Source: Bacteroidales bacterium
Lineage (GTDB): Bacteria > Bacteroidota > Bacteroidia > Bacteroidales > WCHB1-69
Direction of reading: 5' to 3'
Length of the DNA: 64,000 bases
NCBI GenBank assembly: GCA_017395245.1
Contig: JAFPVR010000101.1
Span: 1-64,000, forward strand
A program made the position numbers and the translations under genes. This document shows, one piece after another, positions 4,577 to 43,058 of the stretch. Positions within the stretch are counted from its first letter, which is position 1, and each line of letters begins with the position of its first letter. The notes under the pieces were generated by a model. The model saw only the letters and a list, made by a program, of their open reading frames with translations, had not been told where the DNA came from and searched no databases.

Positions 4577-4642
4577 GCCTCGGAGAGGCAACACGCACGA
4601 AGTGCAATTAACTCCATACAAGCGAAGCGCAGTGTGGAGCCA
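4577..4642 (+). repeat. Dispersed leader element A, copy A1
   Basis: Three consecutive hairpins: GCCTC-GGA-GAGGC, then GCAC-GAA-GTGC, then CTCCATAC..GTGTGGAG with an inner GCG-AA-GCGC part. Relative to copy A2, the second base pair of the third stem is T-A instead of C-G, a compensatory change. It reads in the same direction as the flippase gene and ends 23 nt before its ATG. Confidence 0.75.
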
Positions 4643-4665
4643 AGAAAACCAACAAAACCGAAACA

Positions 4666-6168
4666 ATGGCAAAAAGTGAAGTCAAAAAACTGGCCGGGCA
4701 GACGGTCATATACGGCGGGAGCACCGTGCTGGCGCGACTCCTCAACTACCTGCTGGTGCCGCTCCACACCTACATTTTCCAGAACGCGTCGGACTACGGT
4801 GTGGTTGGCGAGCTTTACGCCTGGACCAGCCTCTTCATCGTGATTCTCACCTATGGCATGGAGACCGCCTTCTTCAAGTTCTCGCAGGATGACGGCATCA
4901 AGGACCGCGTCTATAGCACCGTGGTGGGGTCGCTGCTCTGCACCTCCACCCTCTTCATCGTGCTCTGCGGAATCTACTCGCAGCCCATCGCCGAATGGCT
5001 GCAATACCCCAATCATCCCGAATATGTGCGCTGGTTCTCTGTAATCATCGGCGTGGATGCGCTCACCTCCATCTTTTTCGCGCACCTGCGGTTCCAAAAT
5101 CGGGCAATGACCTTCGCGGCGGTGAAGATTACTAACATCCTCGTCAACGTGCTGCTCAACCTTTTCTTCCTGTTGCTCTGTCCGTGGCTGCTCACCAAGA
5201 ACCCCGACTCCGCCTTCGTCAACGCGATTTACAACCCTGAAATCGGGGTCGGCTACATCTTCATCGCCAACCTCGTGGCCAGCGTGGTCACCCTGCTGAT
5301 GCTCTTCCCGGGCATCTTCAAGCAGAAGTTCGTCTTCGACTGGCAGCTGTGGAAGAAGATGTTCCGCTACGCTTTCCCGCTGCTGATTTTCGGTTTGGCC
5401 GGCATCGTGAACGAGACGATGGACCGTGTGCTGCTCAAGCGGCTGTCGCTCGCCCCCGACCCCCAGGCCTCCGTGGGCATCTACAGCGCCTGCTACAAGA
5501 TTTCCATCATGATGACCATTTTCATCCAGGCCTTCAAGTATGCCGCCGAGCCGTTTTTCTTCCGCAAGGCGAAGGACAAGGACGCGAAAGAAACCTACGC
5601 CGAAGTGATGACCGCTTTCGTGCTGGTCTGCTCGATCATTTTCGTTGGCATCATGCTCTACATCGACCTCGTGCAATATTTCGTGGGACCGGGCTACCGC
5701 GTGGGCCTGCCCATCGTCCCTATCTTGCTGATGGCCAACCTTTTCCTCGGCATCTTCTACAACCTTTCAATCTGGTACAAGCTCACCAGCCAGACCAAAT
5801 TCGGAGCCTACATCGCCATCTTCGGGGCGGTCATCACCCTGGTTCTCAACTGGTTGCTGATTCCGCGTTTCGACTACATGGGTGCGGCCTGGACCACCTT
5901 CGCCTGCTACCTCTCCATGATGGTCGTCTCTTACCTTCTCGGTCAGAAGTACTACCACGTCGATTACGACCTCAAGCGCATCCTCTTCTACCTCTTCTTC
6001 GCAGTGGCCGTCTTCGGCCTGAGCCTCGGTGTCAACAAACTCTTCGGCATCGAGAAGGTCTGGGTGCGGTTGGCGGTGAACACGGTGATTTTGATTGGGT
6101 ATTTGGGAGTGCTTGGCTGGATGAACAGGGATATGCTACGGGGGATGTTTGGCCGTAGGGGCGAATAA
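4666..6168 (+). CDS. Polysaccharide/oligosaccharide flippase (MOP superfamily)
   Basis: 500 residues, with about 14 hydrophobic segments and a charged N-terminus (MAKSEVKKLAGQTVIYGGST) typical of Wzx-like members of the MOP exporter superfamily. It probably moves lipid-linked saccharide units across the inner membrane for capsule, O-antigen or exopolysaccharide. The substrate cannot be read from the sequence, and no polymerase or glycosyltransferase is adjacent. The start codon is the first ATG after leader element A1. The last four residues (RRGE) and the stop codon come from a 28-bp palindrome at 6155-6182, so the native C-terminus may have been altered by its insertion. Confidence 0.88.
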   Translation: MAKSEVKKLAGQTVIYGGSTVLARLLNYLLVPLHTYIFQNASDYGVVGELYAWTSLFIVILTYGMETAFFKFSQDDGIKDRVYSTVVGSLLCTSTLFIVLCGIYSQPIAEWLQYPNHPEYVRWFSVIIGVDALTSIFFAHLRFQNRAMTFAAVKITNILVNVLLNLFFLLLCPWLLTKNPDSAFVNAIYNPEIGVGYIFIANLVASVVTLLMLFPGIFKQKFVFDWQLWKKMFRYAFPLLIFGLAGIVNETMDRVLLKRLSLAPDPQASVGIYSACYKISIMMTIFIQAFKYAAEPFFFRKAKDKDAKETYAEVMTAFVLVCSIIFVGIMLYIDLVQYFVGPGYRVGLPIVPILLMANLFLGIFYNLSIWYKLTSQTKFGAYIAIFGAVITLVLNWLLIPRFDYMGAAWTTFACYLSMMVVSYLLGQKYYHVDYDLKRILFYLFFAVAVFGLSLGVNKLFGIEKVWVRLAVNTVILIGYLGVLGWMNRDMLRGMFGRRGE

Positions 6169-6218
6169 TCATTCGACCTTACAATGTGGCATTTTATCGA
6201 CGTTCGTGTCCGTATTTT
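6155..6218. repeat. 28-bp palindrome plus direct repeat, left flank of fic
   Basis: 6155-6182 is a near-perfect palindrome with GTAG/TTAC ends and GGGGCGAATAA in the arm. The following 36 nt (GCATTTTATCGACGTTCGTG and on) recur almost unchanged after the fic gene at 7408-7469, so fic is bracketed by direct repeats of about 62 nt. Confidence 0.8.
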
Positions 6219-6221
6219 TCG

Positions 6222-6229
6222 TATATTTG
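6222..6229 (+). promoter_or_regulatory. -7 promoter element for the fic gene
   Basis: TATATTTG followed by CGC is an exact TAnnTTTG match, 22 nt before the start codon at 6252. Confidence 0.6.
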
Positions 6230-6251
6230 CGCTCTGAAACACTACCATCTT

Positions 6252-7421
6252 ATGGCATTGGAAGAAAGATATTTGGACTTTGACGAGTACATCCGGCAAG
6301 GGGAGCCCGGCAAGCGGGAAAAGGCTGCCATTTGGCAGACGGCCATCGGTTTGCAGGCTGTAGATGGCCTGACGACCTCGGACTATCTCAAGGAGACGGC
6401 CCGCCGGCATATTGAGGGGGAGATCGGCATCGACGATGTGCGCAAGCTGATCACGACCTATTATCATACGAAGGAGATGCGAGAGCCTGACGATGAGGGC
6501 AAGCATCAGGCCGACAAAGTGTCCGCCAATATCACCAAAATCCTTTCTTCCGAAACGCTGGACTTCAGCACCAATGGACTTATTTCGCTGCATCGCAGGA
6601 TATTTGAGGGCGTGTTTGATCATGCGGGCCTTCTGCGCAAATACGACATCACCAAGAGCGAATGGGTACTGGAAGGCGATACTGTACACTATCTGAATTG
6701 GGAGGACCTGCGTCGGGCTTTGGATTATGATATTGCCCAAGAGCGCGGATTCAGCTACAAAGGTATTTCACAGGACGAAATCATTGCCCATATCGCCCAG
6801 TTTGTGTCCGGTATATGGCAAATACACGCTTTTGAAGAAGGGAATACCCGTGCAACGGCCGTGTTCACCATTCTTTACCTGCGTGACATAGGTTTCAAGG
6901 TCAACAACGACATGTTTGCCCAGCATTCATGGTACTTCCGAAACGCACTAGTCCGTGCCAATTACAAAAGCGCCGTGAAAGGCATCGACTACTCGCCCGT
7001 TTATCTGGAACGCTTCTTCCGCAACCTGCTTTTGAGCGAGCAGTGGGATTTGCGCAACCGTTACCTGCATATCCACCCCACGGAAGAATGGAGCGTACAA
7101 CCGAATTTGGCTGACCCTACAAGCGCAGGACAAGTACAGGACAAGTACGGGACAAGTAAAGGGCAACCACAGGATAAGTTGTTCACTGATAACCCGAATA
7201 TCCTGAAACTTATACAAGTGGTTGGAAATAAAGAATTGTCTGTCAAGGAGATGATGGATAGAATAAAACTTAAAGGGCGCGATAATTTCTTGAATCTTTA
7301 TCTTTTACCTGCTATCGCTAACGGTTACGCCCGTATGTTATACCCCAGTTCCCCACGCCACCCGCGACAGAAATACTTGCTGACGGTGAAAGGGTTGGCG
7401 TTATACCGTATGGGCGAATAA
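6252..7421 (+). CDS. Fic family protein with N-terminal helical segment
   Basis: 389 residues. The Fic catalytic motif HxFx(D/E)GNxR is intact as HAFEEGNTR at residues 192-200, so an AMP transfer (or related NMP/phosphate transfer) from nucleotide to a protein hydroxyl is expected. Residues 1-75 are helical and end in ETARRHIEGEIGIDDVRKLI, which resembles the VbhA-type antitoxin helix fused to many Fic proteins, although the usual S/T-x3-E-G spacing is not met exactly. The C-terminal 100 residues look like a winged-helix domain. The start follows from the promoter position. The stop codon lies inside a 28-bp palindrome. Flanking direct repeats suggest the gene entered as a cassette. Confidence 0.9.
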   Translation: MALEERYLDFDEYIRQGEPGKREKAAIWQTAIGLQAVDGLTTSDYLKETARRHIEGEIGIDDVRKLITTYYHTKEMREPDDEGKHQADKVSANITKILSSETLDFSTNGLISLHRRIFEGVFDHAGLLRKYDITKSEWVLEGDTVHYLNWEDLRRALDYDIAQERGFSYKGISQDEIIAHIAQFVSGIWQIHAFEEGNTRATAVFTILYLRDIGFKVNNDMFAQHSWYFRNALVRANYKSAVKGIDYSPVYLERFFRNLLLSEQWDLRNRYLHIHPTEEWSVQPNLADPTSAGQVQDKYGTSKGQPQDKLFTDNPNILKLIQVVGNKELSVKEMMDRIKLKGRDNFLNLYLLPAIANGYARMLYPSSPRHPRQKYLLTVKGLALYRMGE

Positions 7422-7469
7422 TCATTCGCCCATACAACGGCATTTTATCGACGTTCGTGTCCATAATTA
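7408..7469. repeat. 28-bp palindrome plus direct repeat, right flank of fic
   Basis: 7408-7435 is a perfect 28-bp palindrome with GTAT/ATAC ends, followed by the same GCATTTTATCGACGTTCGTG stretch as the left flank at 6155-6218. Confidence 0.8.
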
Positions 7470-7472
7470 TTG

Positions 7473-7480
7473 TATTTTCG
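7473..7480 (+). promoter_or_regulatory. Possible variant -7 promoter element
   Basis: TATTTTCG differs from TAnnTTTG at one position and lies 24 nt before the start codon of the beta-propeller gene, the same spacing as in other genes here. Confidence 0.35.
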
Positions 7481-7504
7481 CCACGAATTCAAAAACGAAA
7501 AAAT

Positions 7505-8467
7505 ATGATAAAATACGTGAAAACCCTGATGGTGACATGTTTATGCGTAATGTCGAGTGCGTTGTGCGTAGGGCAAAACGTGAAAATTTACGACACCTCC
7601 AATTCTGGACTGATTGACAATGACATTTGGGCCGTGGTAGTGGATCATGACGGCAACAAATGGTTGGGTACCCTCAAATACGGGTTGATCAAATTCGACG
7701 GCGACACGTTCACCGTTTTCAACAAAGAGAACTCCGCCATCAAAGGCGATTGCGTGACGACGCTGTTCGTAGATTCCAAAGGGAACCTTTGGGCAGAATA
7801 TTCACGCCCGGAGGAGGGAATCGTCAAGTTTGATGGTGAAAATTGGACGGTTTTCACAGCCGCCAGCTTGGGAGTTGAAAGCATTGATGTGCGAGACATT
7901 CGCGAAGCCTCCGACGGAGCAATTTGGTTTGCTTTTCCTGGTAAAGCGGTGATTTACAAAGACGGATCTTGGTCCACGATGAAAATCCCCTACGATAATA
8001 TTCTCTGCATGGATGTTCGCGAAGACGGCACCATCGCCGTGGGTTGCGATATGCAACTGCTCATTTTCTCTAACGGGAAATGGAAAAAATACACGGAGAA
8101 GAATTCCGAACTGCAATTGGGCACCATCCGCGGTCTGAAGTTCCGTCCCGATGGCGCCTTGATGATCGGTTACGGCGGCGGTTTCGGCGGCGGTGGACTC
8201 TCCGTGCTGAGCAGCAACCTCAAAGTGTGGACCCACTATAACAAGTCCAACTCTCGAATTCCCGACCATCATATCCGCGACATTGAATACGACGGCAAAA
8301 ACTACTGGATGGCCTCAAACAACGGATTGGTGAAAAAGGACGGGGGCGACATCTCTGCAGTTTTCTTCAGGGAAGGGATGTTCAAAAATGTGATCTCCGA
8401 CATCGCCCTCGAAGGCAAAACCCTATGGATCGCCACCAATTTCGGTCTGATCAAATATGAACCATGA
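7505..8467 (+). CDS. Secreted beta-propeller protein (Reg_prop type repeats)
   Basis: 320 residues. The N-terminus has a signal peptide (about residues 1-24, ending ALCVGQ). The rest is a run of about seven repeats with the sequence pattern 'DHDGNKWLGT..GLIKFDG' and 'DSKGNLWAEY', which matches the two-component-regulator propeller repeat seen in the sensor half of Bacteroidetes hybrid two-component systems. Here the propeller stands alone, without membrane helix, kinase or regulator domain, so it is probably a periplasmic or surface binding protein. Ligand unknown. Confidence 0.8.
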   Translation: MIKYVKTLMVTCLCVMSSALCVGQNVKIYDTSNSGLIDNDIWAVVVDHDGNKWLGTLKYGLIKFDGDTFTVFNKENSAIKGDCVTTLFVDSKGNLWAEYSRPEEGIVKFDGENWTVFTAASLGVESIDVRDIREASDGAIWFAFPGKAVIYKDGSWSTMKIPYDNILCMDVREDGTIAVGCDMQLLIFSNGKWKKYTEKNSELQLGTIRGLKFRPDGALMIGYGGGFGGGGLSVLSSNLKVWTHYNKSNSRIPDHHIRDIEYDGKNYWMASNNGLVKKDGGDISAVFFREGMFKNVISDIALEGKTLWIATNFGLIKYEP

Positions 8468-8507
8468 GGTTTTTAAGACAACTAGGAAGAAGGGGTAGCG
8501 TCATACC

Positions 8508-8535
8508 GTAGGGGCGAATAATTATTCGCCTCTAC
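8508..8535. repeat. 28-bp palindrome (GTAG..CTAC family)
   Basis: Near-perfect 28-bp inverted repeat with the same GGGGCGAATAA arm as the copies flanking fic, followed by a short remnant of their downstream sequence. It lies between the propeller gene and the convergent RNase Z gene. Confidence 0.8.
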
Positions 8536-8550
8536 AATCTGGCATTTTTC

Positions 8551-8578
8551 GTTAACCGTTAACCTCTAACCTTTAACC
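8551..8578. repeat. Heptad repeat, core TAACC (locus 4)
   Basis: Four 7-nt units (GTTAACC, GTTAACC, TCTAACC, TTTAACC). The stop codon of the RNase Z gene on the other strand falls within the last unit. Confidence 0.75.
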
Positions 8579-9505: not shown

Positions 9506-9529
9506 GGTGACATATTTTTTTCTCTGGGA

Positions 9530-9537
9530 CAAAAATA
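9530..9537 (-). promoter_or_regulatory. -7 promoter element for rnz
   Basis: TATTTTTG on the minus strand, an exact TAnnTTTG match 25 nt before the start codon. Confidence 0.6.
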
Positions 9538-9707
9538 CAAAAGTTTCGAATCGGATATGATGTGATTTTAACAATAGCCGACAGAAATAATAGTGACTAA
9601 TGCCTGTTGCCTCAAAAAGTCAACAGCCTTCCTTTTTTTTGCCAAAAATACACAATTAATAATTAATCATGTCTGATTATCAATATTTTACATTTACTAA
9701 AAAATGT

Positions 9708-9715: not shown

Positions 9716-9742
9716 CCGCCGTGTTTTTGAAATAGCAATTAT

Positions 9743-10912
9743 ATGAAGATTCTATTTGTAGTAAACAACATTTTCTGTCAGGGTAATGGTCTTGACGCTT
9801 CCGCACGGCGAACAGTTCAGGCACTTCGCAATGCCGGACAAGACGTACGCGTCCTTTCGTGCGAAAATGTGAACGACCCCAATGGTCCACAACCAGAGTA
9901 TAGACAAAGGGAATTCATTTTCCCATTATTCCAGCCCATTATCAAAGCGCAAGGTTATTCTTTCGCTAAATGGAGAGGACCGTCCATTGAAGAAGCTGTT
10001 CGTTGGGCGGATGTCGTTCATATTGAAGAGCCGTTCTTTATCGAACATGCAGCCATGAATTGGGCAAAGAAACTTGGGAAACCTCTCACAGCGACCTATC
10101 ACTTGCATCCTGAAAACATTTTTTACTCGCTCGGAATGGGCAATTGGTCGTTTCCGAACAACACGCTCTTGCGATACTGGTCTCGCGTTTTCCTCGATAA
10201 TTGCCTATATGTGCAATGCCCTACCGAAAACGTCCGGGAACGATTAAATAGTTTTCACGTCAAAGCCAATTGTATAACGCTCTCCAATGGTTTGATACCC
10301 GATAAATGCATTCGTCCCGTAACACCACCAGAAGACTATTACGACGAAAATCGTCCATTAAAGGTGATCTACATCGGCCGTCTTTCCGGAGAGAAGGACC
10401 AGCCCACGCTGCTCGAAGCCATGCGCTATAGCAAATTCGCTCATCGAATTCAATTGCACTTCGCGGGTAGCGGCCCCAAAGAGAAGCAATACAAGCGTCT
10501 TTCGTCAAAGCTCATGAAAGAGGGTGTGCTCAAATACGAACCCATTTTCGGGTTCTATAACCGCGACCAGCTGCGCCAAATTGCCGCCAACGCCGATTTG
10601 GCCGTGCATTGCGCTATCATCGAAGTGGAAGGTCTGAGCATTATGGAGGCCATGCAGCAGGCGGTGATGCCCGTGATTGCCGTTGGACGTTGTTCTGGCA
10701 CATCGCAATTCGCCTTGGATGATCGCAGCAAATTCCCGGCAATGGATCCTAAAGCACTTGCAGAGCGCATCGACTACTGGCTTGATCATCCGAAAGAGCG
10801 TTGGGAGATGGGATTCAAATACGCCGAATCGATGGAACAATATGACATTGCCCAAAGCGTGAAAGGCCTCGTCGAGATGTTCGAAGCGGCGATACGGGAG
10901 CTGGAAAACTAA
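9743..10912 (+). CDS. Glycosyltransferase family 4 (GT-B)
   Basis: 389 residues with two Rossmann-like halves. The N-terminal half begins MKILFVVNNIF and includes a glycine-rich loop (GNGLDASARR). The C-terminal half has the nucleotide-sugar binding region VIYIGRLSGEKDQPTLLEA near residue 210 and the EX7E-type motif EVEGLSIMEAM near residue 295. It should transfer a sugar from a nucleotide donor to a glycan or lipid acceptor at the cytoplasmic face of the membrane. No partner genes adjoin, so the product is unknown. Confidence 0.85.
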   Translation: MKILFVVNNIFCQGNGLDASARRTVQALRNAGQDVRVLSCENVNDPNGPQPEYRQREFIFPLFQPIIKAQGYSFAKWRGPSIEEAVRWADVVHIEEPFFIEHAAMNWAKKLGKPLTATYHLHPENIFYSLGMGNWSFPNNTLLRYWSRVFLDNCLYVQCPTENVRERLNSFHVKANCITLSNGLIPDKCIRPVTPPEDYYDENRPLKVIYIGRLSGEKDQPTLLEAMRYSKFAHRIQLHFAGSGPKEKQYKRLSSKLMKEGVLKYEPIFGFYNRDQLRQIAANADLAVHCAIIEVEGLSIMEAMQQAVMPVIAVGRCSGTSQFALDDRSKFPAMDPKALAERIDYWLDHPKERWEMGFKYAESMEQYDIAQSVKGLVEMFEAAIRELEN

Positions 10913-21906: not shown

Positions 21907-21914
21907 TCTTGAAT

Positions 21915-21949
21915 GGTTATGGGTTATTGGTTATGGGTTATTGGTTATT
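21915..21949 (-). repeat. Heptad repeat, word GGTTATT/G (locus 9)
   Basis: Five exact 7-nt units, alternating GGTTATG and GGTTATT on the plus strand, ending 9 nt upstream of the acyltransferase start codon. Confidence 0.85.
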
Positions 21950-21973
21950 GAAGCTTCCTTGAGCAGCCCTATT

Positions 21974-22060
21974 CCCCTTCTTTTAAAAAGGGGTGGGAAG
22001 GGCCGGGGTAGTTAAAACCACTTCCTTGAACAGCCCCGGAGGGGCAAGAGCTCGGTAGAG
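21974..22060 (-). repeat. Dispersed elements D1 and C (single) upstream of the acyltransferase
   Basis: 21974-22014 is element D: a CCCCTTCTTTT..AAAAAGGGG hairpin followed by a GGAAGGGCCGGGGTAGTT tail. 22027-22060 is a single copy of element C (ACAGCCCCGGAGGGGCAAGAGCTCGGT), the unit that forms the array at 32.9-33.35 kb. Confidence 0.6.
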
Positions 22061-22071: not shown

Positions 22072-22623
22072 TTATGATTGATTATCAACATTAAACGGGT
22101 AGTTTTTCGCAAAATCCAGCAGGTTCCGGTAATGTAACGGCGTGAGCTTCAAAATCTCCTCGTATTCGCCCTCGTGTTTCGCGCCGACATGCACGGGTGT
22201 GATACCCGCATTGACGGCGAACTGCATGTCGGAGAGGCTATCGCCGACCATCACGGAGTCGGCAAAGTCGAGGTCGGGGAAGTCAGCTTTGGCCTGCAAC
22301 GCCATCCCGATGTCGGGTTTGCGGCAGCCGCAGCCCGCACCGGCCTTGTGCGGACAGCAATAAACAGCGTCCAAGGGGGTGAGGTTCTCTTCAAAAGTGA
22401 CCCGCATCTGCTGGTGAATCTCCTCAATATCTTCCATCTTGCAGATGCGCTTGGCCACGCACTGCTGGTTGGTGACCACGATAATGCGGCGGAACTTCGG
22501 CCGCAGCCACTGCATGGCCGTCAGCACGCCCGGAATGAGCTCGAACTCCTCGGGCTTGCGCACGTACCCGCCTACGATTTGCACGTTAATGATGCCGTCT
22601 CGGTCTAAGAATAGGGTGTCCAT
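22072..22623 (-). CDS. gmhB: D-glycero-D-manno-heptose 1,7-bisphosphate phosphatase (GmhB-like)
   Basis: 183 residues of the HAD-IIIA phosphatase type. The nucleophile motif FLDRDGIIN is at residues 5-13, VVTNQQ is motif II, and MVGDSLSDMQFA is motif IV. The zinc-binding CCPH..CGCRKP loop is characteristic of GmhB, which removes the C7 phosphate in ADP-heptose synthesis for lipopolysaccharide. The zinc loop argues against histidinol phosphatase alone. The leader holds a heptad repeat and element A5 in the sense direction. Confidence 0.88.
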   Translation of the reverse strand: MDTLFLDRDGIINVQIVGGYVRKPEEFELIPGVLTAMQWLRPKFRRIIVVTNQQCVAKRICKMEDIEEIHQQMRVTFEENLTPLDAVYCCPHKAGAGCGCRKPDIGMALQAKADFPDLDFADSVMVGDSLSDMQFAVNAGITPVHVGAKHEGEYEEILKLTPLHYRNLLDFAKNYPFNVDNQS

Positions 22624-22662: not shown

Positions 22663-22723
22663 CCCCACACTGCGCTCATTTCATTCGCTTATGTGGGATT
22701 AATTGCGCTTCGCGCGTGTTGCC
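22663..22723 (-). repeat. Dispersed leader element A, copy A5
   Basis: Sense to gmhB: contains the GCGCGAAGCGC hairpin and the CCCACAT..GTGTGGGG stem, with the loop enlarged and the first GCCTC hairpin missing. It lies about 40 nt upstream of the gmhB ATG. Element D2 (22728-22780) adjoins in the opposite orientation. Confidence 0.65.
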
Positions 22724-22727
22724 TTAC

Positions 22728-22780
22728 CACCCCGCCCTGCGGGCACCCCTCCATAGGAGGGGAAAGGGCTGCTTAAGGAA
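22728..22780 (+). repeat. Dispersed element D, copy D2
   Basis: ACCACCCCGCCCTGCGGGCA followed by the hairpin CCCCTCC-AT-AGGAGGGG and AAAGGGCTGCTTAAGG. The inner sequence differs from D1 but keeps both hairpins. Confidence 0.6.
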
Positions 22781-25443: not shown

Positions 25444-25470
25444 CCGCTGCTTTCAAGACTGCTTCCTTAA

Positions 25471-25540
25471 GCAGCCTCGAAGAGGCAAAACGCGCGAAGC
25501 GCAATTAACCCCACATAAGGCGAAGCCGCAATGTGGGGCC
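25471..25540 (+). repeat. Dispersed leader element A, copy A2 (fullest copy)
   Basis: Three hairpins: GCCTC-GAA-GAGGC, GCGC-GAA-GCGC, and the long CCCCACAT..ATGTGGGG stem with inner GGC-GAA-GCC. It is preceded by TTCCTTAAGCA, a lead-in shared with copies A3 and A4 and element D. It is sense to the rhomboid gene, ending 21 nt before its ATG. Confidence 0.8.
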
Positions 25541-25561: not shown

Positions 25562-26650
25562 ATGGCAAACAATCAAATCGGACTCAACGGGTTCAATATC
25601 CTGCCGAAAGGCGTCAAGAACCTCCTTATAATCAACGTGCTGGTGTTCTTCGCAACCGTCGTGTTCGCGAAAACGGGCATTTGCGACCTGAACAAGTGGC
25701 TCGGGCTGCACTACTTCAAGGCCCCCGACTTCCACCTGTGGCAGTTCATCACCTACATGTTCATGCACGGCAACTTCGGCCACATCTTCTTCAATATGTT
25801 CGCGCTCTGGATGTTCGGAGCAGCGGTGGAGAACTACTGGGGCACCAAGAAGTTCCTGATCTACTATCTCGTGACTGGCATCGGTGCCGCACTCACCCAC
25901 TATCTCATCACCTTCGTGGAGATTCACTCTGCTATGGCGCTCTTCGACCAGTTCCTTAACGCGCCCTCGTTAGAGACTTACCGCTATCTCGTTGAGAACA
26001 ACCAGATTACGCAGTTGCAAGGAGCCTTGCAGAACAACTACAACGTGCTGCTGCAGCAGCCCGACCAACTCAACGAACTCGTGGCCGCCACCATCTCCAT
26101 CCAAGACAGCTACCTGAACAGTTTCGTGCTCATCGGCGCTTCCGGAGCCATCTACGGCATCCTGCTTGCCTTCGGCTTCCTCTTCCCCAACTCCCCGATT
26201 TACATCTACTTCCTCTTCCCCATCAAGGCCAAATGGTTCGTGGTGATCTTCGGTGCTCTTGAGTTAATTTACGGTGTGGTGGGCACCTCCGACGGCGTGG
26301 CGCATTTCGCGCACTTCGGCGGTATGATTTTCGGCATCCTGCTCATCTGGCTCTGGCACCGTCACGACAAGCTGGGACAGCAGCAGACCTACTACCAGTT
26401 CAACGGAACCCGCGACAGCGGTCGCCAATCCAACTGGCAGTTCTGGAAAAAAGAAGGGGTAAGCGACCGTAAATCAAAGTATTACGTATCCAAGGAAAGC
26501 GGTCGTCCCCTCAGCGACGAGGATTTCAATGCCCGCCGTCAAGCTGAAAAGGAGCGCATCGACGAGATTCTCGACAAGATTTCCAAAAGCGGTTACGACG
26601 CGCTGAGCAAAGAGGAAAAAGACCTGCTGTTCCACTATTCCCAGAAATAA
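25562..26650 (+). CDS. Rhomboid family intramembrane serine protease
   Basis: 362 residues with six predicted membrane segments. The catalytic serine is in GASGAIYG (Ser194) and the histidine in HFGG (His251); the oxyanion-side HGNFGHIFFNMFALW motif in helix 2 is complete. An unusual loop of about 65 residues (120-185, glutamine- and asparagine-rich) separates helix 3 from the serine helix. The soluble C-terminal tail (from about 265) ends in a helical KEEKDLLFHYSQK. Substrate unknown. The EEP gene starts 3 nt after its stop codon, so the two form an operon. Confidence 0.92.
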   Translation: MANNQIGLNGFNILPKGVKNLLIINVLVFFATVVFAKTGICDLNKWLGLHYFKAPDFHLWQFITYMFMHGNFGHIFFNMFALWMFGAAVENYWGTKKFLIYYLVTGIGAALTHYLITFVEIHSAMALFDQFLNAPSLETYRYLVENNQITQLQGALQNNYNVLLQQPDQLNELVAATISIQDSYLNSFVLIGASGAIYGILLAFGFLFPNSPIYIYFLFPIKAKWFVVIFGALELIYGVVGTSDGVAHFAHFGGMIFGILLIWLWHRHDKLGQQQTYYQFNGTRDSGRQSNWQFWKKEGVSDRKSKYYVSKESGRPLSDEDFNARRQAEKERIDEILDKISKSGYDALSKEEKDLLFHYSQK

Positions 26651-32553: not shown

Positions 32554-32771
32554 GGCGCGGGAGGAGGGTCGGCATTCCTGCCGACCGCCGTTAAGGCGTA
32601 TGCGATATGCTCCTACAACCCCGCATCGCCATCACATCACCCTCCTCCCGCGCCGTCGGGCTATCCGTTCCAATGCTTTTTTGCCTGTCGGTCTCCGCAA
32701 AAACGAACAACAATGCGCCCCCTCAACAACTTGTAGGACAACGCATTCTATGTAACAAGGCAAAAAAGCAT
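32554..32771. repeat. Nested inverted repeats in the 32.5-33.4 kb spacer
   Basis: Perfect 15-bp arms GGCGCGGGAGGAGGG (32554-32568) and the complement (32640-32654). Overlapping the base of the left arm is an 8-bp perfect hairpin, GGTCGGCA-TTCC-TGCCGACC (32567-32586). To the right, a separate perfect 14-bp inverted pair, ATGCTTTTTTGCCT (32673-32686) and its complement (32758-32771). No gene is visible in this part of the spacer. Confidence 0.7.
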
Positions 32772-32871
32772 TTCCACTTCTATCCCTCTCGCGACGCCCG
32801 CACCGTAACGGTGTGTGCGTTTGTCAAAACCTCCACCGCAGACCTTTCTCCCGTCATCGTGTCCCGCTCTT

Positions 32872-33353
32872 ACCGAGCTGTCGCCCTGCCGGGGCTCTGT
32901 TGAACCGCCGACAACCTCTTCCACCGAGCTGTCGCCCCTGCCGGGGCTCTGTTGAACCGCCGACAACCTCTTCTACCGAGCTGTCGCCCCTGCCGGGGCT
33001 CCGTTGAACCGCCAACACCATCTTCCACCGAGCTGTCGCCCCTGCCGGGGCTCCGTTGAACCGCAAACACCCCCTCCTACCGAGCTACCGCCCCTGCCGG
33101 GGCTCTGTTGAACCGCCAACACCAGCTTCTACCGAGCTGCCGCCCCTGCCGGGGCTCTGTTGAACCGCCGACAACCTCTTCTACCGAGCTGTCGCCCCTG
33201 CCTTGGCGTTGTGCCACATCTTGTCCCAGCAGGGACAACAGCTCGGTAGATCAGCGCAACCGCGTGTCCCGTTATGTCCCGACAGGGACAACAGCTCGGT
33301 AGATCAGCGCAACCGCGTGTCCCGTTATGTCCCGACAGGGACAACAGCTCGGT
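32872..33353. repeat. 52/53-bp GC-rich hairpin array (element C), two opposed halves
   Basis: Left half 32872-33200: six units of 52 bp (the first 51) plus a partial one. Each unit begins ACCGAGCTGTCG, has the hairpin GCCCC-TGCC-GGGGC, then CTGTTGAACCGCC and 13 less conserved bases. Right half 33221-33353: units of 53 bp ending ACAGCTCGGT, the reverse complement of the left unit's start, with the hairpin TGTCCC-GACA-GGGACA. The whole unit is repeated, and 52 is not a multiple of three, so neither CRISPR nor a protein repeat fits. A related hairpin follows at 33380-33395. No supported gene lies between 32514 and 33409. Confidence 0.85.
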
Positions 33354-33409
33354 GGACCGACGTTTCCAAAATCAAAAAACGCCCCGACAGGGGCGTAAGA
33401 CAATTACGG

Positions 33410-34436: not shown

Positions 34437-34506
34437 GCCCCACACTGCGGCTTCGCCTTATGTGGGGTTAATTGCGCTTCGCGCGTTTTGCCTCTTCGAG
34501 GCTGCT
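34437..34506 (-). repeat. Dispersed leader element A, copy A4
   Basis: Nearly identical to A2 including all three hairpins. It reads in the sense direction toward tsaD and ends 22 nt before its ATG. Confidence 0.8.
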
Positions 34507-34540
34507 CAATGAACTCTATTTTATATCGGTCGAAGGGCCA

Positions 34541-34582: not shown

Positions 34583-35932
34583 TTATCGATCACCTATTAT
34601 CAACTTTTCCAGCACATCCATCGCCTTCTCCGGAGCCATCGGCTCCGAAACCCGCTTCTTGCCCTCGTACACACAGACGAGGCCGTTGGAGGCGCCCACG
34701 ATGCCGAAGTCGGCGTCGGCCATCTCGCCGGGACCGTTCACGATGCAGCCCATGACCCCGATTTTGAGGCCGGGATAGCCCGCAAAGCGCTGTTTCACAG
34801 TGGCAAACACCGTCTGAATGTCGTACTGCGTGCGCCCACAGGAGGGACATGCCACGAACTCCGTGTTCAATATCTTAATACGGCAGGCCTGCATAATGAG
34901 AGATTCGTAGTCTGCAATTTGCTTTTCGCTGAAATGCGGATTACGCAGCTGGAGATTTTTCAATCCGTACTGGAAGTGGGCGTAACCAGTGGCGGCCGCA
35001 GCCCGACAAAACCAACGTTCTTCCTCTTCGGAATCATCGTCGAAGATTAAGGTTCCGTCCTGAATGTTCAGATTTTCAACATCCAGATTTTCAATTGATT
35101 TCAACAACTTGTGAGCAAATGGGCTCTCGTTCTCGGGCGGTTCGGTAAGCGAGACGCGCACGGTGTCGCCGATGCCCATCAGCAGCAAAGCGCCAATGCC
35201 CGCCGCCGACTTCACCCTACCCTCTTTGTCGTTGCCGGCCTCCGTAACGCCAAGGTGCAGCGGATACGAGTCGCCGCGTTGCAACATGCTGTCATGAAGC
35301 AACTTGGTGGCCGTCATCATGGTGAGCACGTTGCTGGATTTCATCGAGAAGACCAGCTTGTGGAAGTCATAGCGGTCGCAGATGTCGAGCCATTCGAGCG
35401 CCGACTGCACCATTGCCTCGGGAGTGTTGCCGTAGCGGCTGACAATGCGGTCGCAAAGCGAGCCGTGGTTGATTCCGATGCGCAACGCCGTGCCGTGTTC
35501 TCTGCAAATCTCGAACAACGGCTTGGCTCTCAACGCCATACGCTCCACCTGCGCGGCATATTCGCTGTCGGAGAGGTCGAGCTGCGAGAAGTTCCGTTTG
35601 TCGGTAAAGTTGCCGGGGTTCACGCGCACCTTGTCCATGAAGGTCGCCACCGCCTCCGCCACTTTCGGGTTGAAATGCACGTCAGCGACGAGTGGCACAT
35701 GCCCGTAGCCGTCTGATTTCAACTGTTTTTGTATAGCTTTGAGGGGTTCCACCTCGTGGAGCGAGGGTACCGTCAGCCTCACCATCTGCGCCCCGGATTC
35801 GATCATCCGCTCGCACTGCGCCACCGATGCGGCCACATCTGCCGTGTCGGTATTGGTCATTGACTGCACCACCACGGGAGCCTTCCCGCCGATGGTCACG
35901 TCACCTATTTGGAATTGTTGGTTGCTGTTCAT
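34583..35932 (-). CDS. ispG: 4-hydroxy-3-methylbut-2-enyl-diphosphate synthase
   Basis: 449 residues. IspG (GcpE) converts MEcPP to HMBPP in the MEP isoprenoid pathway using a [4Fe-4S] cluster. The TIM-barrel part has PVVVQSMTNTDT, ADVHFNP, RVNPGN and GINHGSL; the cluster cysteines are in FVACPSCGRTQ and VMGCIVNGPGE. The Bacteroidetes enzymes I know carry a large insert between the barrel and the cluster domain and are about 600 residues; here the insert (about 265-360) is much shorter, between that type and the E. coli type. The start at 35932 (MNSNQQ) fits leader element B3. Confidence 0.94.
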   Translation of the reverse strand: MNSNQQFQIGDVTIGGKAPVVVQSMTNTDTADVAASVAQCERMIESGAQMVRLTVPSLHEVEPLKAIQKQLKSDGYGHVPLVADVHFNPKVAEAVATFMDKVRVNPGNFTDKRNFSQLDLSDSEYAAQVERMALRAKPLFEICREHGTALRIGINHGSLCDRIVSRYGNTPEAMVQSALEWLDICDRYDFHKLVFSMKSSNVLTMMTATKLLHDSMLQRGDSYPLHLGVTEAGNDKEGRVKSAAGIGALLLMGIGDTVRVSLTEPPENESPFAHKLLKSIENLDVENLNIQDGTLIFDDDSEEEERWFCRAAAATGYAHFQYGLKNLQLRNPHFSEKQIADYESLIMQACRIKILNTEFVACPSCGRTQYDIQTVFATVKQRFAGYPGLKIGVMGCIVNGPGEMADADFGIVGASNGLVCVYEGKKRVSEPMAPEKAMDVLEKLIIGDR

Positions 35933-35965
35933 ATTGGGTTTTATCGTTCGTTCATCCTCAAACGT

Positions 35966-36018
35966 CCCAGGGCTCACTCCGTTCACCCTAGGCTAACATA
36001 CGACGCCCTTACAGGGCT
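35966..36018 (-). repeat. Dispersed leader element B, copy B3
   Basis: Sense to ispG: hairpin GCCCTGTAAGGGC, then CGTCGTATGTTAGC, then stem CCTAGGG/CCCTGGG (one mismatch). It ends 34 nt before the ispG ATG. Confidence 0.75.
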
Positions 36019-37319: not shown

Positions 37320-37817
37320 ATGGACAACCGATACCCTTTGACAGTTTATGACAACAACCGGCCCGTGGAAATCCGCGACGAAGCCGAGTGGGAGCATTTT
37401 TCCCGCGATTTCACCCTTATCCACGCCGCCGGCGGCATCGTTTCCGACGGTAACGGCGACATTTTGATGATTCACCGCCTCGGATGCTGGGACTTTCCCA
37501 AAGGCAAGGTCGAAGACGGCGAGGATTGGGAGACGGCAGCCCTGCGGGAAGTTGAGGAAGAGACCGGCCTGCACGACATCACCCTCGCAGAACCGCTCCC
37601 GAACACCTACCACACCTACCAACTGCGCGGCACCCCCATCCTGAAAATCACCCACTGGTACGCGATGAACGCCCCGCAACAGCCCCTTACCCCGCAAACC
37701 GAGGAGGACATCACCCAAGCCGTTTGGGTGCCGCAGACCGAAGTGTCCGACCGTTTACAGAAATCTTATGCCTCTCTTATTTCCTTATGGTCCAATATCT
37801 TAAGTCTTAAGTCGTAA
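37320..37817 (+). CDS. Nudix hydrolase
   Basis: 165 residues. The Nudix box GX5EX7REUXEEXGU is complete, running from GKVEDGE to REVEEETGL at about residues 60-82, so it hydrolyses a nucleoside diphosphate linked to another group. The N-terminal 40 residues (YPLTVYDNNRPVEIRDEAEWEHFSRDF) form a small extra domain seen in Bacteroidetes members. The position of PKGKVEDGE after GCWDFPKG suggests a diadenosine tetraphosphatase-like type, but substrate is not certain. A heptad repeat follows directly. Confidence 0.9.
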   Translation: MDNRYPLTVYDNNRPVEIRDEAEWEHFSRDFTLIHAAGGIVSDGNGDILMIHRLGCWDFPKGKVEDGEDWETAALREVEEETGLHDITLAEPLPNTYHTYQLRGTPILKITHWYAMNAPQQPLTPQTEEDITQAVWVPQTEVSDRLQKSYASLISLWSNILSLKS

Positions 37818-37836
37818 GTCCTAAGTCTAAAGTCTC
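37798..37836 (+). repeat. Heptad repeat, word TAAGTCT (locus 13)
   Basis: Five 7-nt units spanning the end of the Nudix gene and reaching to 2 nt before the start codon of the hydrolase gene, so it sits where the ribosome binding site would be. Confidence 0.85.
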
Positions 37837-37837
37837 A

Positions 37838-39259
37838 ATGAAAAACTATCTTATCATTTTTACGGTAGCTTTACTCACAACCTCACAAATTTCCGCCCAA
37901 CCCCTCACCGGCTACTGGGAGGGCAAGATCTGCATCACGAAGACAGACTCCTTAACCGTCGGCTTACAGATTGACTATCAAGGCGATACGCTATATGCAG
38001 AACTTGACAGCCCCGACCAGTATTTCACAGGGCAACCGGTGAGCGGGCTTATGTTCGCAGATTCCACCTTGTCGTTTCGTGTGCCGGAGTTCGGCCTCAC
38101 CTACTCAGGCTCGCTTTCTACTGACGGACAACGCTTTACGGGCACGTGTACGCAATACGGGCGCAAGTTCGCCTGCACGCTCGCACGGGGAGCGGAACGG
38201 AAGCAATTTCTCCGTCCGCAGACGCCCATCCCACCTTATCCGTACCGCACCGAAGAGATCAGCTTCCGCGACCGCAACGGCAAGTACTCCCTCATCAACG
38301 GCACGCTGACCTTACCCGACAGCACTCCCAAAGGGCTCATCATTTTCATCAGCGGATCGGGCTGGCAGGACCGTGACGAGTCGCTGTATGCACACAAGCC
38401 CTTCGCCGTGATCGCCGACACGCTCACCAAGGCCGGTTTCGCCACCTTCCGCTACGACGACTTCCCGACGGCCATCTTCCGCAAATCCACCACCTACGAC
38501 TTCGCGGACGGCGTTCGACTCATTCTGGATTCCTTATTGCAACGCAGTGATTTACAATACCTTAAGGTAGGACTGTTGGGACATAGTGAAGGCAGTTTGG
38601 TGGCCAGCATGGTAGCGGCCGACGACCATCGGGTGGATTTCACCATCCACCTCGACGGGGTTGCGCAGCCGATTGACGAAATCCTACTCTACCAGAGCGA
38701 GGCCATCGCCCGCGCCTCTGGCAAGTTGACGGAAAAGGAGATTGCAAACAGTACCGCCATCAACAAGCGTATCTACGACGTTATTAAGAAGAGTAAAAGC
38801 AAGGAGGAATGCGTCGAAAAAATCGGCAAACTGTGGGATGAACTCGCCGCAAAGCTCACCGACGAGGAGAAAGTCAAGTACAACCTCACCCCGCAGAACA
38901 AACTCATAACCCTGCAGACCTTCGGCTCGCCGTGGTACTACGAGCTCTTCCGCATCGACCCGAAAAAATACCTCAAAAAAATCAAGACCCCTGTGTTAGC
39001 CATCTCCGGGCAGAAAGACTTGCAGGTTGATGCAAACGCCACGGAAAAGATCATGGACAAATATTTGACCAGCAATACGTTATACTTCTTTTACAAGATG
39101 CCGGACTTAAACCACCTTCTCCAACCCTGCACCACTGGCAGTCCCGACGAATACGGACAAATCGAGACCACGATCGCACCCGAAGCGCTGGAGTCGATTG
39201 TACATATTGCGGAGTTGTTTGCGACGTATGGGCATCCCGTTCTAAAAGTAGTAAAATGA
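37838..39259 (+). CDS. Secreted alpha/beta hydrolase
   Basis: 473 residues with a signal peptide (1-20, cleaved after ISA). Residues 25-125 form a beta-rich N-terminal domain; from 140 on an alpha/beta hydrolase of the serine aminopeptidase/esterase type follows. The nucleophile elbow GHSEGS is near residue 250, GSGWQDRDE is the oxyanion region, and LNHLLQP near residue 430 holds the likely histidine. Acts probably in the periplasm on an ester or peptide substrate that cannot be named. Overlaps the next gene by 4 nt (ATGA), so the two are coupled. Confidence 0.85.
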   Translation: MKNYLIIFTVALLTTSQISAQPLTGYWEGKICITKTDSLTVGLQIDYQGDTLYAELDSPDQYFTGQPVSGLMFADSTLSFRVPEFGLTYSGSLSTDGQRFTGTCTQYGRKFACTLARGAERKQFLRPQTPIPPYPYRTEEISFRDRNGKYSLINGTLTLPDSTPKGLIIFISGSGWQDRDESLYAHKPFAVIADTLTKAGFATFRYDDFPTAIFRKSTTYDFADGVRLILDSLLQRSDLQYLKVGLLGHSEGSLVASMVAADDHRVDFTIHLDGVAQPIDEILLYQSEAIARASGKLTEKEIANSTAINKRIYDVIKKSKSKEECVEKIGKLWDELAAKLTDEEKVKYNLTPQNKLITLQTFGSPWYYELFRIDPKKYLKKIKTPVLAISGQKDLQVDANATEKIMDKYLTSNTLYFFYKMPDLNHLLQPCTTGSPDEYGQIETTIAPEALESIVHIAELFATYGHPVLKVVK

Positions 39260-40239
39260 AAACAAAAGCACTTTGGCAAACAGCGGCAATCTGCCTGATT
39301 ACGATTACGGCCTTTCTGACAAGCGGTTGCGACAGACCGTTGCGCTTTCCTTTCCAGATATACCCGACACCGGAACCGGCAGAAGGTACCGACAGTGTGC
39401 CCCCTCCTCCCACATCGGAAATCATCCCCAATGCGGTCACCGACTATGACGGCAACGTCTATGACGCGGTGCGTATCGGCAACCAGATCTGGCTGCGACA
39501 GAACATGCACACTACCCACTATGCCGACGGGACGCCTATCCCGAACGGTATCGAGACACCACCCGAGAAGCCCGAATGGGCATGGTACGAGAAAAACCAC
39601 AGCGGTATCCACAACAGCGACTCTTTGGCTTACTACTATGAAATCCCCAACGCCGACAAGGAGTTTTACGGTCTGCTCTACAACTGGTCGGCGGCGGTAC
39701 GTGGCAATTTAGGTAAAACCAACTACGCCGGCGACGTGCAGGGTGTCTGTCCCGACGGCTGGCACGTGCCGAGCGACGAGGAGTGGAGCAAACTGGAGCG
39801 ATATGTGTGCGGGGTTCCGGGCTACACCTGCAGCGACGACAGTTCCTATATTGCGAGTGCGCTTGCGGCGGACACCGGATGGGGTTCTTCCAAAGGCCGG
39901 CACTCTGACCCAGAGAATGCAGCTTATTTGCTGGGGGCGACAAAAAGGTGGAAGAAGAAGGGAAAAAAGGTGGAGGATGTGAAAGAACGCGCCGACTACC
40001 GCACGTTCACGCCGGACTGGAAACCAGAAGACAACAACGCTACCGGTTTTTCTGCGGTACCGGCAGGGCGTTTCACCAGTGGCTTCACAGAGTTGGGCAA
40101 GGAGGCGAACTTCTGGACCGCTTCGCGGAGTCACGACATCTATGTGTGGTACCGATACTTGAACGCAGGAAGCCCCGTAGTGTACAAAACCTACAACTCC
40201 AGGGATTACGGGTTCTCCGTCCGCTGCCTACGCGACTAA
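39256..40239 (+). CDS. FISUMP-domain lipoprotein
   Basis: 327 residues. Signal peptide with lipobox LTSGC at about residue 25, a short proline-rich linker, then a 'Fibrobacter succinogenes major paralogous' domain. Typical marks are YDAVRIGNQIWLRQNM, GLLYNWSAAV, CPDGWHVPSDEEWSKLE, GFSAVPAGR and FWTASRS..GFSVRCLRD. The fold belongs with C-type-lectin-like surface proteins; the role is unknown. Translationally coupled to the upstream hydrolase. Confidence 0.92.
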   Translation: MKTKALWQTAAICLITITAFLTSGCDRPLRFPFQIYPTPEPAEGTDSVPPPPTSEIIPNAVTDYDGNVYDAVRIGNQIWLRQNMHTTHYADGTPIPNGIETPPEKPEWAWYEKNHSGIHNSDSLAYYYEIPNADKEFYGLLYNWSAAVRGNLGKTNYAGDVQGVCPDGWHVPSDEEWSKLERYVCGVPGYTCSDDSSYIASALAADTGWGSSKGRHSDPENAAYLLGATKRWKKKGKKVEDVKERADYRTFTPDWKPEDNNATGFSAVPAGRFTSGFTELGKEANFWTASRSHDIYVWYRYLNAGSPVVYKTYNSRDYGFSVRCLRD

Positions 40240-40261
40240 CTTCCAAGTATCCTCCTAACCC

Positions 40262-40310
40262 TTAAACTCTCAACTCTCAACCCTAAACTCTCAACTCTAA
40301 ACTCTCAGCC
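40262..40310. repeat. Heptad repeat, word AACTCTC (locus 14)
   Basis: Seven 7-nt units (TAAACTC, TCAACTC, AACCCTA and similar) after the FISUMP gene. Confidence 0.85.
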
Positions 40311-40366
40311 CTCCCTCTTTTTTTTCACATTTTATCAACACCCCCCATCGGCAATCGTATATTTTA

Positions 40367-40374
40367 TACCTTTG
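40367..40374 (+). promoter_or_regulatory. -7 promoter element for the TonB receptor gene
   Basis: TACCTTTG followed by CCGAC, 35 nt before the start codon. Confidence 0.65.
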
Positions 40375-40408
40375 CCGACTTATTATATTGAATTTAAATA
40401 CTCTAAAT

Positions 40409-42958
40409 ATGAAGAAATTCCTACTACTGACGGTTCTGGTCCTCTTCTGTTTCGGCGCTGTTTTCGCCCAGGAGAACAAGACGGAAAAGAAAGGCAAGAA
40501 GACTCAGAACAAGGAGGCGGTCTCGTCGAACGAGGGCGATGACAATGTGACATCCCTGCCCCCTTCTATCGAAGAGGACGATGAAGGCGACGACGGGGTT
40601 GCGGGCGGCAACTATGTGCCGAGCCTGTTGCACAGCAGCAAGGACGTATTCGCCAACAACACCTCCTACACCTTCAGCATCGCCTACTTCAAGCCGCGCG
40701 GCTACGACAACCGCTATGGATTGGTCTGCGTGAACGGCTATGACATGAGCAACCAGGTCACCGGCCGCGCCACCTATTCGCTATGGGGCGGTCTGAACCA
40801 CATCTTCCGTTATCCGGAGAGCGTCAGCGGCCTGAACGAGGTGCCGTTTGCCTTCGGCGACATCGGGGGTGCCATCCAATACAACCTGCGGGCCAGCAAC
40901 TTCCGCAAGCAACTGCGGGCCACCTACTCGCTGTCTAATCGCACCTACACCAACCGCATGATGCTGACCTATAGCACCGGTCTTAGCCCCAAGGGCTGGG
41001 CATTCACCGCGTCTATCTCTTCGCGCTTCGGCAACGAACTGGCCTACGTGGACGGCACCGACTACACCAGCTTCTCCGGCTTTGTGGCCGCCGAGAAGAA
41101 AATCAACAGCGAGCACTGGCTCAATCTGTCGGCCTTCACCAACTACCAGCAGCGCGGCATGCAGTCGAGTTCCGTGCAGGAGGCCTACGACCTGCTCGAC
41201 AACCACTACTACAACGCCAACTGGGGCTGGTATCAGGGCAAGCAGCGCAACGCCCGCGTGCGCACCGTGTGCGAGCCGGTGATTATGCTGACCCACAACT
41301 TCACGCCCGCCAGCAATAAACTCAATATCCAAACCACTCTCGCCACCACGTTCGGCTTCAACAACACCACCTCCCTCAACTGGTACGACGCACAGGACCC
41401 GCGTCCCGACTACTATCGCTACCTGCCCAGCTACCAAATTGACGGCACCGACACATCCCAAGCCTACTACGACGTGCTGGCCTTGTGGCAGAACAACGAC
41501 CAAAGCTATACGCAGGTGAACTGGGACCATCTTTATGATGTCAACCAGTTAGCCGCATCGCAGGGAAAACGCGCCCAGTATATGGTGGAGAACCGCCGCA
41601 TGGACCACTTCCAGCTCGGTGCCAGCACAAATCTCAGCTGGTCCATCAACGACCACTGGAAACTCTACGGCGGCGCCATCGTGCGGGGCATGAAACAGCG
41701 CAACTACAAGACCATCGAAGACATGTTGGGCGGAAGCTACTGGTTGGATGTCGACAAATTTTCCGAAGGCGACTTCCCTGAAGACGCGAACGTGCAGTAC
41801 AACGATCTGCAGCACAAGGGAGACACGCTGCATGAGGGTGATGTCTTCGGTTACGACTATGATTACCACGTCTACGAGGAGAAACTCTGGGGCTTGATAA
41901 AGGCCACCTACAACCATTGGGATTTCTATGTGGGCCTGCAGGTCGGTGCATCGCAAATCTGGCGTTATGGACACATGCAAAACGGCCGTTTCCCGACCGA
42001 ATCGTTAGGCAAATCGGAAACGAGATTCCTCACCGACAACGGCATAAGAGGCGGCGTCACATATAAGATTAACGGACGTAATTACCTCGTATTAAACGGT
42101 TTAAGCGAGACAAAATCGCCCAACATCCTTAACTCCTTCCTCTCACCGCGCATTCGCAACGCATATGTGCCTGGGCTGAAATCGGAACGGATTTTCTCCG
42201 GCGATTTCTCCTACATTATGAACTATCCGGTTATCAAGATGCGCATCACTGCCTTCGCCACGAAGATCAACGATGCCTCCAAGGTGATCAGCTTCTACAA
42301 CGACGACTACGCCAGCATGGTCAACTACGCCATTTCGGGCATCGACCAGCGGTATATCGGCATTGAGGCCGGCGCGGAAATCAAGTTAGGCAGCATGTTC
42401 TCGTTGATTTTGGCCGGCACGTGGGGCGACTACCGCTACACCGACCGCGCCCACGTGACGATGAATGCGGAGAACGGCGTCGACTTCGACGGGCAGATGG
42501 AGCGCACCGTCTATTGGAAGAACTACCATGTGGCCGGCAGCCCGCAAGTGGCCGCCACCGGAGGTCTAAAGTTCAACTACAACTACTGGTGGGTGAACAT
42601 CAACTGCAACTGGTTCGACAAAATCTACTGCGAACTGAACCCCGAGCGCCGCACCAGCGCCGCCCGCGGCTCCTTGGACGAGAACTCCGAACTCTACCAC
42701 CAGATCGCCGACCAGGAACGCCTGCCGGGTCAGTTCACCATGGACATTTCCGTGAGCAAGTCCTGGCGCATCGCCCACAAATACAACATCGGCTTCAACG
42801 CCAGCGTCACCAACCTGCTGAACAACAAGAACTTGGTGACCACCGCGTGGGAGCAGTACCGCTTCGACTACACCAACTACAACGTCGGCAAATACGCCAA
42901 CAAGTACTACTACGCCTTCGGCACCACCTTCTATTTAGGCATCAACTTCCAGATGTAG
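40409..42958 (+). CDS. TonB-dependent receptor
   Basis: 849 residues with a signal peptide (MKKFLLLTVLVLFCFGAVFAQ) and a lysine- and glutamate-rich linker. A plug-like domain follows (SSKDVFANNTSYTFSIAYFKPRGYDNR to FAFGDIGGAIQYNL, about 70-165). The rest is a 22-strand-type barrel ending in TFYLGINFQM, a C-terminal beta-strand with aromatic end. No carboxypeptidase-like leader domain is seen. It probably imports an unknown ligand through the outer membrane. Two DUF5689 lipoproteins downstream may be its surface partners. Confidence 0.88.
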   Translation: MKKFLLLTVLVLFCFGAVFAQENKTEKKGKKTQNKEAVSSNEGDDNVTSLPPSIEEDDEGDDGVAGGNYVPSLLHSSKDVFANNTSYTFSIAYFKPRGYDNRYGLVCVNGYDMSNQVTGRATYSLWGGLNHIFRYPESVSGLNEVPFAFGDIGGAIQYNLRASNFRKQLRATYSLSNRTYTNRMMLTYSTGLSPKGWAFTASISSRFGNELAYVDGTDYTSFSGFVAAEKKINSEHWLNLSAFTNYQQRGMQSSSVQEAYDLLDNHYYNANWGWYQGKQRNARVRTVCEPVIMLTHNFTPASNKLNIQTTLATTFGFNNTTSLNWYDAQDPRPDYYRYLPSYQIDGTDTSQAYYDVLALWQNNDQSYTQVNWDHLYDVNQLAASQGKRAQYMVENRRMDHFQLGASTNLSWSINDHWKLYGGAIVRGMKQRNYKTIEDMLGGSYWLDVDKFSEGDFPEDANVQYNDLQHKGDTLHEGDVFGYDYDYHVYEEKLWGLIKATYNHWDFYVGLQVGASQIWRYGHMQNGRFPTESLGKSETRFLTDNGIRGGVTYKINGRNYLVLNGLSETKSPNILNSFLSPRIRNAYVPGLKSERIFSGDFSYIMNYPVIKMRITAFATKINDASKVISFYNDDYASMVNYAISGIDQRYIGIEAGAEIKLGSMFSLILAGTWGDYRYTDRAHVTMNAENGVDFDGQMERTVYWKNYHVAGSPQVAATGGLKFNYNYWWVNINCNWFDKIYCELNPERRTSAARGSLDENSELYHQIADQERLPGQFTMDISVSKSWRIAHKYNIGFNASVTNLLNNKNLVTTAWEQYRFDYTNYNVGKYANKYYYAFGTTFYLGINFQM

Positions 42959-42990
42959 TTGCAGTGATTATTATAAACACAATTCCTTAA

Positions 42991-43058
42991 GCAGCCTCGA
43001 AGAGGCAAAACGCACGAAGTGCAATTAACCCCACACAAGCGAAGCGTAGTGTGGGGCC
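42991..43058 (+). repeat. Dispersed leader element A, copy A3
   Basis: All three hairpins present; second stem is GCAC-GAA-GTGC (A2 has GCGC-GAA-GCGC), a compensatory change also seen in A1. Sense to the DUF5689 gene, ending 24 nt before its ATG. Confidence 0.8.

Follow-up and report, generated by a model that had tools for sequence, protein, structure and literature searches.

A dispersed REP-like palindromic repeat in sense orientation in the operon gaps of a Bacteroidales genus

REP elements are common, and their near-symmetry leaves them with little strand information. Element A, the repeat described here from a Bacteroidales genome, has a direction, and thus its position alone is enough to read off effects on the transcribed strand. 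It is a dispersed REP-like palindromic repeat. As the REP, BIME and REPIN systems associated with TnpA_REP (RAYT) are presented in passages of three papers, element A resembles them in being a short, extragenic, high-copy hairpin repeat, in having a tetranucleotide foot before a hairpin, in the occurrence of inverted copies (of its sister form, A′) beside a single Y1 gene, and in lying mostly between co-directional genes (PMC3733652, PMC8266576, PMC6006769). It differs from REPs in its foot, which is TTAA instead of GTAG or CGTC, in its organization as a directional three-hairpin unit, and in a partner Y1 protein of the subclass 1.2 type. The foot of a canonical REP, GTRG or CGTC, is absent from element A, and GTAG was found only at the Y1 loci of relatives. 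Placement differs as well, since element A lies in sense before start codons, whereas the REPs treated in the relevant part of PMC3733652 are found close to 3′ ends and in convergent gaps too. Rickettsia palindromic elements, mentioned in the same paper, are likewise palindromic repeats that are sometimes found in frame in proteins, but almost all copies of element A are intergenic.

The closest described transposases are those of TnpA_Y1 subclass 1.2. In the sections of PMC6006769 that bear on them, they carry the motifs Y---Q--HH and DH[VI]H in about 150 aa and occur in Bacteroidetes at low copy number, features shared by the proteins considered here; they are also generally without IS200-type terminal structures and were listed in 2018 without REPs (PMC6006769). 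In the genus studied here, by contrast, dispersed palindromic repeats lie on both sides of several such genes. These are REP-like candidate substrates for a subclass reported without them, so the enzyme becomes testable in vitro, and they come in two sister forms, A and A′, with opposite polarity. A search of open-licence PMC papers found none on element A.

Copies in the window and dispersal through the genus

The window is the whole stretch of DNA analyzed, 64,000 nucleotides of contig JAFPVR010000101.1 (assembly GCA_017395245.1). A full unit of element A begins with a TTCCTTRARCA head, followed by H1 (GCCTC-GAA-GAGGC) and a linker ending in AC, and continues with H2 (GCRC-GAA-GYGC), AATTAA, and H3 (CCCCACAC ... 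GTGTGGGG), which contains a small inner hairpin. All five copies listed in a first-pass annotation were found in the window, and the genes downstream (polysaccharide flippase, GmhB-like phosphatase, rhomboid, TsaD, and DUF5689) are as it had named them. The copy at 4577..4639 (+) consists of H1-H2-AATTAA-H3 without the TTCC head and precedes the flippase ATG at 4666. Those at 25471 and 42991 carry the head TTCCTTAAGCAG, spanning 25463..25538 (+) before the rhomboid ATG at 25562 and 42983..43056 (+) before the ATG of the DUF5689 gene at 43082. The copy at 34437, with the head TTCATTGAGCAG, occupies 34438..34513 (−) between ispG (34583-35986) and tsaD (start 34414). The remaining copy, at 22663..22780 (−) ahead of the GmhB-like gene start at 22623, is a composite in which the head TTCCTTAAGCAG is followed by another repeat replacing H1 and then by H2-AATTAA-H3. 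This corrects the three-hairpin architecture proposed for all five copies. The head TTCCTTRARCAG is common to the window copies except 4577, with one change at 34437. Four copies fold better than shuffled sequences (z −3.0 to −4.4), and the region of the composite copy folds no better (z 0.15). Copies 4577 and 25471 lie in divergent gaps and the other three in co-directional gaps; all five read in gene sense, with 3′ ends 23-39 nt before the ATG, in agreement with the 20-40 nt first described. The core pattern gives six matches in the window, a number that 0 of 100 shuffles reach; the sixth, at 10449, has three mismatches and is probably due to chance. An alternative head (about GRTGACRCACYG) stands instead of TTCCTTRARCAG before H1 at window 4555-4576 and at L073, L092, L162, and L451, the latter four being in sense wherever their context is known.

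A search of the genome and its relatives, which the first-pass annotation had suggested, was carried out with the core pattern. When at most two mismatches are allowed, the 3.78-Mb genome contains the pattern GCNCGAAGNGCAATTAACNC at 106 places (50 forward, 56 reverse), compared with one match for the reversed pattern. With one mismatch allowed, it was detected in a single Bacteroidales genus, in 31 of the 36 genomes searched, at 1 to 88 copies each (0 to 88 across the genus), and 24 other genomes of the order lacked element A apart from one chance-like match. Among the matches listed for named GTDB contigs, 79 of 80 are from Bacteroidales or Bacteroidetes MAGs, many with titles naming ruminant hosts, and viral contigs gave two matches to the core pattern. 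One contig carrying element A (L140) is titled Synergistales and is possibly a mis-binned Bacteroidales contig.

The edges of the element are sharp, with the 5′ edge at TTCC and the 3′ edge after H3, and the foot is AATTAA in 195 of 207 copies (AAGTAA in 6, AAATAA in 6). In one gap, this genome has head-A-head-B where a relative has head-B, consistent with the head being the edge of a unit. No clean empty site was observed in eight pairs of occupied and unoccupied gaps, and no terminal inverted repeat is seen at the edges TTCC and GGGG. With a target-site duplication, such a repeat would mark a MITE of a DDE transposase.

Orientation and spacing relative to genes

The bias in orientation and the nearness to start codons, first noticed in five copies, extend through the genome and its relatives and pass the refutation test that the first-pass annotation had set for them. 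The counts exclude repeated sequences and any copy close to the end of a locus. The orientation table covers 85 parsed copies of this genome, the 106 places above reflecting a looser pattern. Headed copies (n = 61) comprise 53 sense and 3 antisense in tandem gaps, 3 sense in divergent gaps, and 2 in frame in an N-terminus, as judged by a home-made simple codon-usage caller that misses genes such as 3417-4469 and therefore lists copy 4577 as tandem though it is divergent. Once sites of this genome and its relatives had been clustered by homology of their flanks, 119 distinct TTCC-headed sites remained, in which 111 are sense, 6 antisense, and 2 without an orientation call (binomial p = 4e-26 for 111 vs 6), with sense denoting a sense gene downstream or a site inside its N-terminus. 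The latter applies to 5 of the 119. Of 175 gaps with element A (A′ included), 167 are tandem and 2 convergent, compared with 360 tandem among 484 gaps without A, B, or C (p = 6e-11 for tandem gaps). In single-unit copies (n = 76), the 3′ end lies a median of 30.5 nt from the start codon; two end less than 15 nt from it, whereas in 20 the upstream stop is no more than 15 nt from the 5′ end. In-frame copies in N-termini, by predicted starts, were seen at L004, L153, L016, L078, L160, and L169, and the copy at L004 precedes a lipoprotein-like signal sequence.

It had been proposed from upstream promoters that the element lies in mRNA leaders. A TAnnTTTG-like box is indeed present upstream of 4577 and 25471; however, of 76 sense copies of this genome, 4 have the box TAnnTTTG[CT] upstream and 3 have it downstream, while 69 have no such promoter motif in their gap. 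The leader proposal is thus mostly wrong, and the typical copy is intercistronic.

We favor, with moderate confidence, a reading in which element A belongs to the REP kind of mobile repeat, short and non-autonomous, and owes its sense orientation in operons to selection at the transcript level. Judging from its family, a Y1 protein would nick and rejoin the structured top DNA strand and so spread copies, and those in operon gaps would, given their position, be transcribed. Selection may then remove copies that oppose the operon's direction or sit too close to a start codon; the pattern is observed, and it may come about because the reverse strand terminates or destabilizes the operon message. 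Under such selection the A form would survive in sense, with some 15 nt or more left between it and the following start codon. Counting against this, terminator matches come from one copy, which has two (region expectation 0.9), and one A′ region has none. A bias from the replication strand was rejected, as copies follow gene direction on either strand of contig C89.

The sense orientation could also arise from the target, if insertion favors an A-rich 5′ flank and the coding strand of leaders is rich in A. In the 12 nt that precede A and B heads (from −16), A makes up 51.5% and T 28.8%, as this would predict. However, of 341 element-free tandem gaps, 210 have A-rich windows and 156 have T-rich ones, which is too even for 111 vs 6. 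Target A-richness is thus disfavored as the sole cause, and target polarity is very improbable as an explanation.

A further explanation is that the repeat spread by transposition and was then kept as a cis-acting RNA, a transcribed three-hairpin spacer that serves the stability, processing, or translation of operon genes. We regard such domestication as rather unlikely, though the nearly exclusive sense placement of A and of family C and the distance kept from start codons are what it predicts. The ispG-tsaD gap bears on it in both directions. Of 30 tsaD loci, 13 are preceded by an ispG match in the same orientation, and in these the gap contains element A in 8, always in sense, and lacks it in 5, most of which carry short tandem repeats instead; the other loci comprise one with a partial copy of A and 16 with neither ispG nor A within the 330 nt examined. 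Retention in 8 of 13 syntenic genomes is in keeping with domestication, while its absence from the other 5 argues against it, as do the unrelated downstream genes in the window and a copy number that varies so widely within the genus. In 60 comparisons of orthologous gaps, drawn from a sample enriched for A in which some gaps recur, A is sense in 41, antisense in 0, and absent from 19. The five downstream genes in the window being unrelated, a regulon of the riboswitch or attenuator kind was rejected. A known Rfam RNA family was likewise rejected, because the curated covariance models give no match to element A at the gathering level in the window; near one copy there are only weak, microRNA-type chance matches.

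Sister form A′, Y1 transposases, and strand folding

Genes for Y1_Tnp proteins are present in 36 of 40 genomes of the genus. A flank script applied to 20 Y1 loci parsed 13 and left 7 unparsed. Repeats with the architecture of A but without its head (A′) flank Y1 genes of the closest type at L380, L381, L382, and L384, in sense upstream and inverted downstream; at L383, the contig end cuts the locus and the downstream A′ copy is retained. In the broad sense, A′ thus has the hallmark of a REP-like element, being a dispersed palindromic repeat that flanks a low-copy Y1 gene in inverted orientation. At L385, L387, L391, and L394 a GTAG foot, identified by eye, precedes the hairpin where A has TTAA, and other CCCC-type hairpins occur at L392, L396, L397, and L398. 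The Y1 proteins carry DHVH or NHVH together with Y---Q--HH, the HUH signature of TnpA_Y1 subclass 1.2 by motif comparison with published passages. The two Y1 proteins tested both pass the Pfam Y1_Tnp model and fall below the NCBIfam cut-offs for IS200 and REP_Tyr_transpos. A and A′ share their architecture, and the TTAA-footed element A is probably a REP-like mobile repeat of TnpA_Y1 subclass 1.2 ancestry. Against this, its own genome, with 106 core matches, encodes no close homolog of the A′-flanked Y1 protein (best 29% identity). By eye, no link is evident between the closest Y1 type present and the copy number of A.

Away from Y1 genes, the polarity of A′ is opposite to that of A. Copies without a head, with a CACC-type third stem, and more than 900 nt from any Y1 gene were counted as A′; the set is a sample, comprising regions picked among the matches listed and copies met earlier. 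In its 22 site clusters, the downstream gene is antisense in 15 and sense in 2, one cluster lies in a gene, and 4 have no orientation call (p = 2e-13 for the difference from A). This contrast argues that polarity is no fixed outcome of insertion. The effects of head and third stem on polarity are inseparable, because headless copies without the ACACC stem (n = 35, some of them inner units of arrays or copies with degraded heads) are also mostly sense, at 28 vs 3 antisense; headed ACACC copies (n = 6) are sense in 4 and antisense in 1.

The same contrast weighs against the possibility that orientation is set by insertion, with a Y1 protein placing single-stranded DNA where transcription exposes the coding strand and selection playing no part. 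Y1 transposases are known to use single-stranded DNA (PMC6006769), and the sense orientation of A and C would follow. The antisense majority of A′ sites would not, nor would the near absence of A from convergent gaps, where 3′ ends are transcribed as well, or the distribution of family B in tandem gaps (28 sense vs 14 antisense among 53 rows). Insertion polarity is thus improbable.

Paired changes in the stems had been advanced as a sign of structured RNA. They are real: 53 unique headed stem sets contain 66 double-change cells (shuffle mean 21.7, maximum 33), but only 6 pairs show any double change, which is inside the shuffle range (mean 4.7, maximum 7). Headed A has more G-T than A-C pairs, 47 vs 17 over cells and 23 vs 14 over unique stems; for A′ the figures are 16 to 7 over cells and 2 to 7 over unique stems. 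When folded as RNA, the top strand is the better one in 168 of 179 copies of A and in 29 of 33 copies of A′, yet in A′ that strand is mostly not the transcript of genes. That the same DNA strand folds better in the mostly antisense A′ too is what one would expect if a Y1 transposase acts on it in single-stranded form. Selection on single-stranded DNA therefore accounts for the stems at least as well, and covariation was rejected as proof of RNA. For the domesticated spacer considered above, paired changes that preserve stems speak in favor and this DNA explanation speaks against. For the favored reading, a mobile repeat sorted by transcript-level selection, the top strand is the structured substrate that the Y1 protein would process.

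Families B and C and other repeats

The TTCC head is found on further repeats besides element A. Family C consists of TTCC, a GGGCTG-AAGCCC hairpin, and a CCCAGGG..CCCTGGG hairpin; two such units lie in sense at 44397..44526 (+), before the gene at 44595, and its 51 sites comprise 42 sense, 7 antisense, and 2 without an orientation call. The Y1 gene of this genome is flanked by inverted copies of family C, not by A. Family B, split by eye, shows 14 sense, 2 antisense, and 1 convergent where a CCCAGGG-type hairpin follows it, and 9 sense and 8 antisense in tandem gaps, with 2 inside reverse genes, where none does. Headed repeats related to A, a composite remnant and family B, stand at 21955..22060 (+), antisense to the flanking genes.

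A broader proposal, which we hold only tentatively, is that a transposase-linked repeat changed its ends (acquiring the TTCCTTRARCAG head and the CCCC-type third stem), flipped its polarity with respect to genes, and came to serve dozens of operons as an intercistronic RNA part present only in sense. The unrelated family C, with the same layout, would then be part of a genus-wide kit of interchangeable REP-like operon spacers.

Several other repeats were noted. Tandem repeats of about 7 nt (ATGAATG, TAACCCA, TTAGTAG, and AAGTCTT types) fill window 37790-37835, 53054-53127, and 21908-21951 and many operon gaps; in some relatives they take the place of element A between ispG and tsaD. The palindromes GTAGAGACGCAAAATTTTGCGTCTCTAC are another dispersed repeat, present at window 27832, 55713, 56567, 60918, 61183, 61217, and 63298. 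At window 32832-33369, with 32650-32797 (−), family-B-like units form a tandem array of six units of 52 nt followed by three inverted units of 53 nt, beside which a match to the Flavo-1 RNA lies just above the gathering score (42.2 vs 42).
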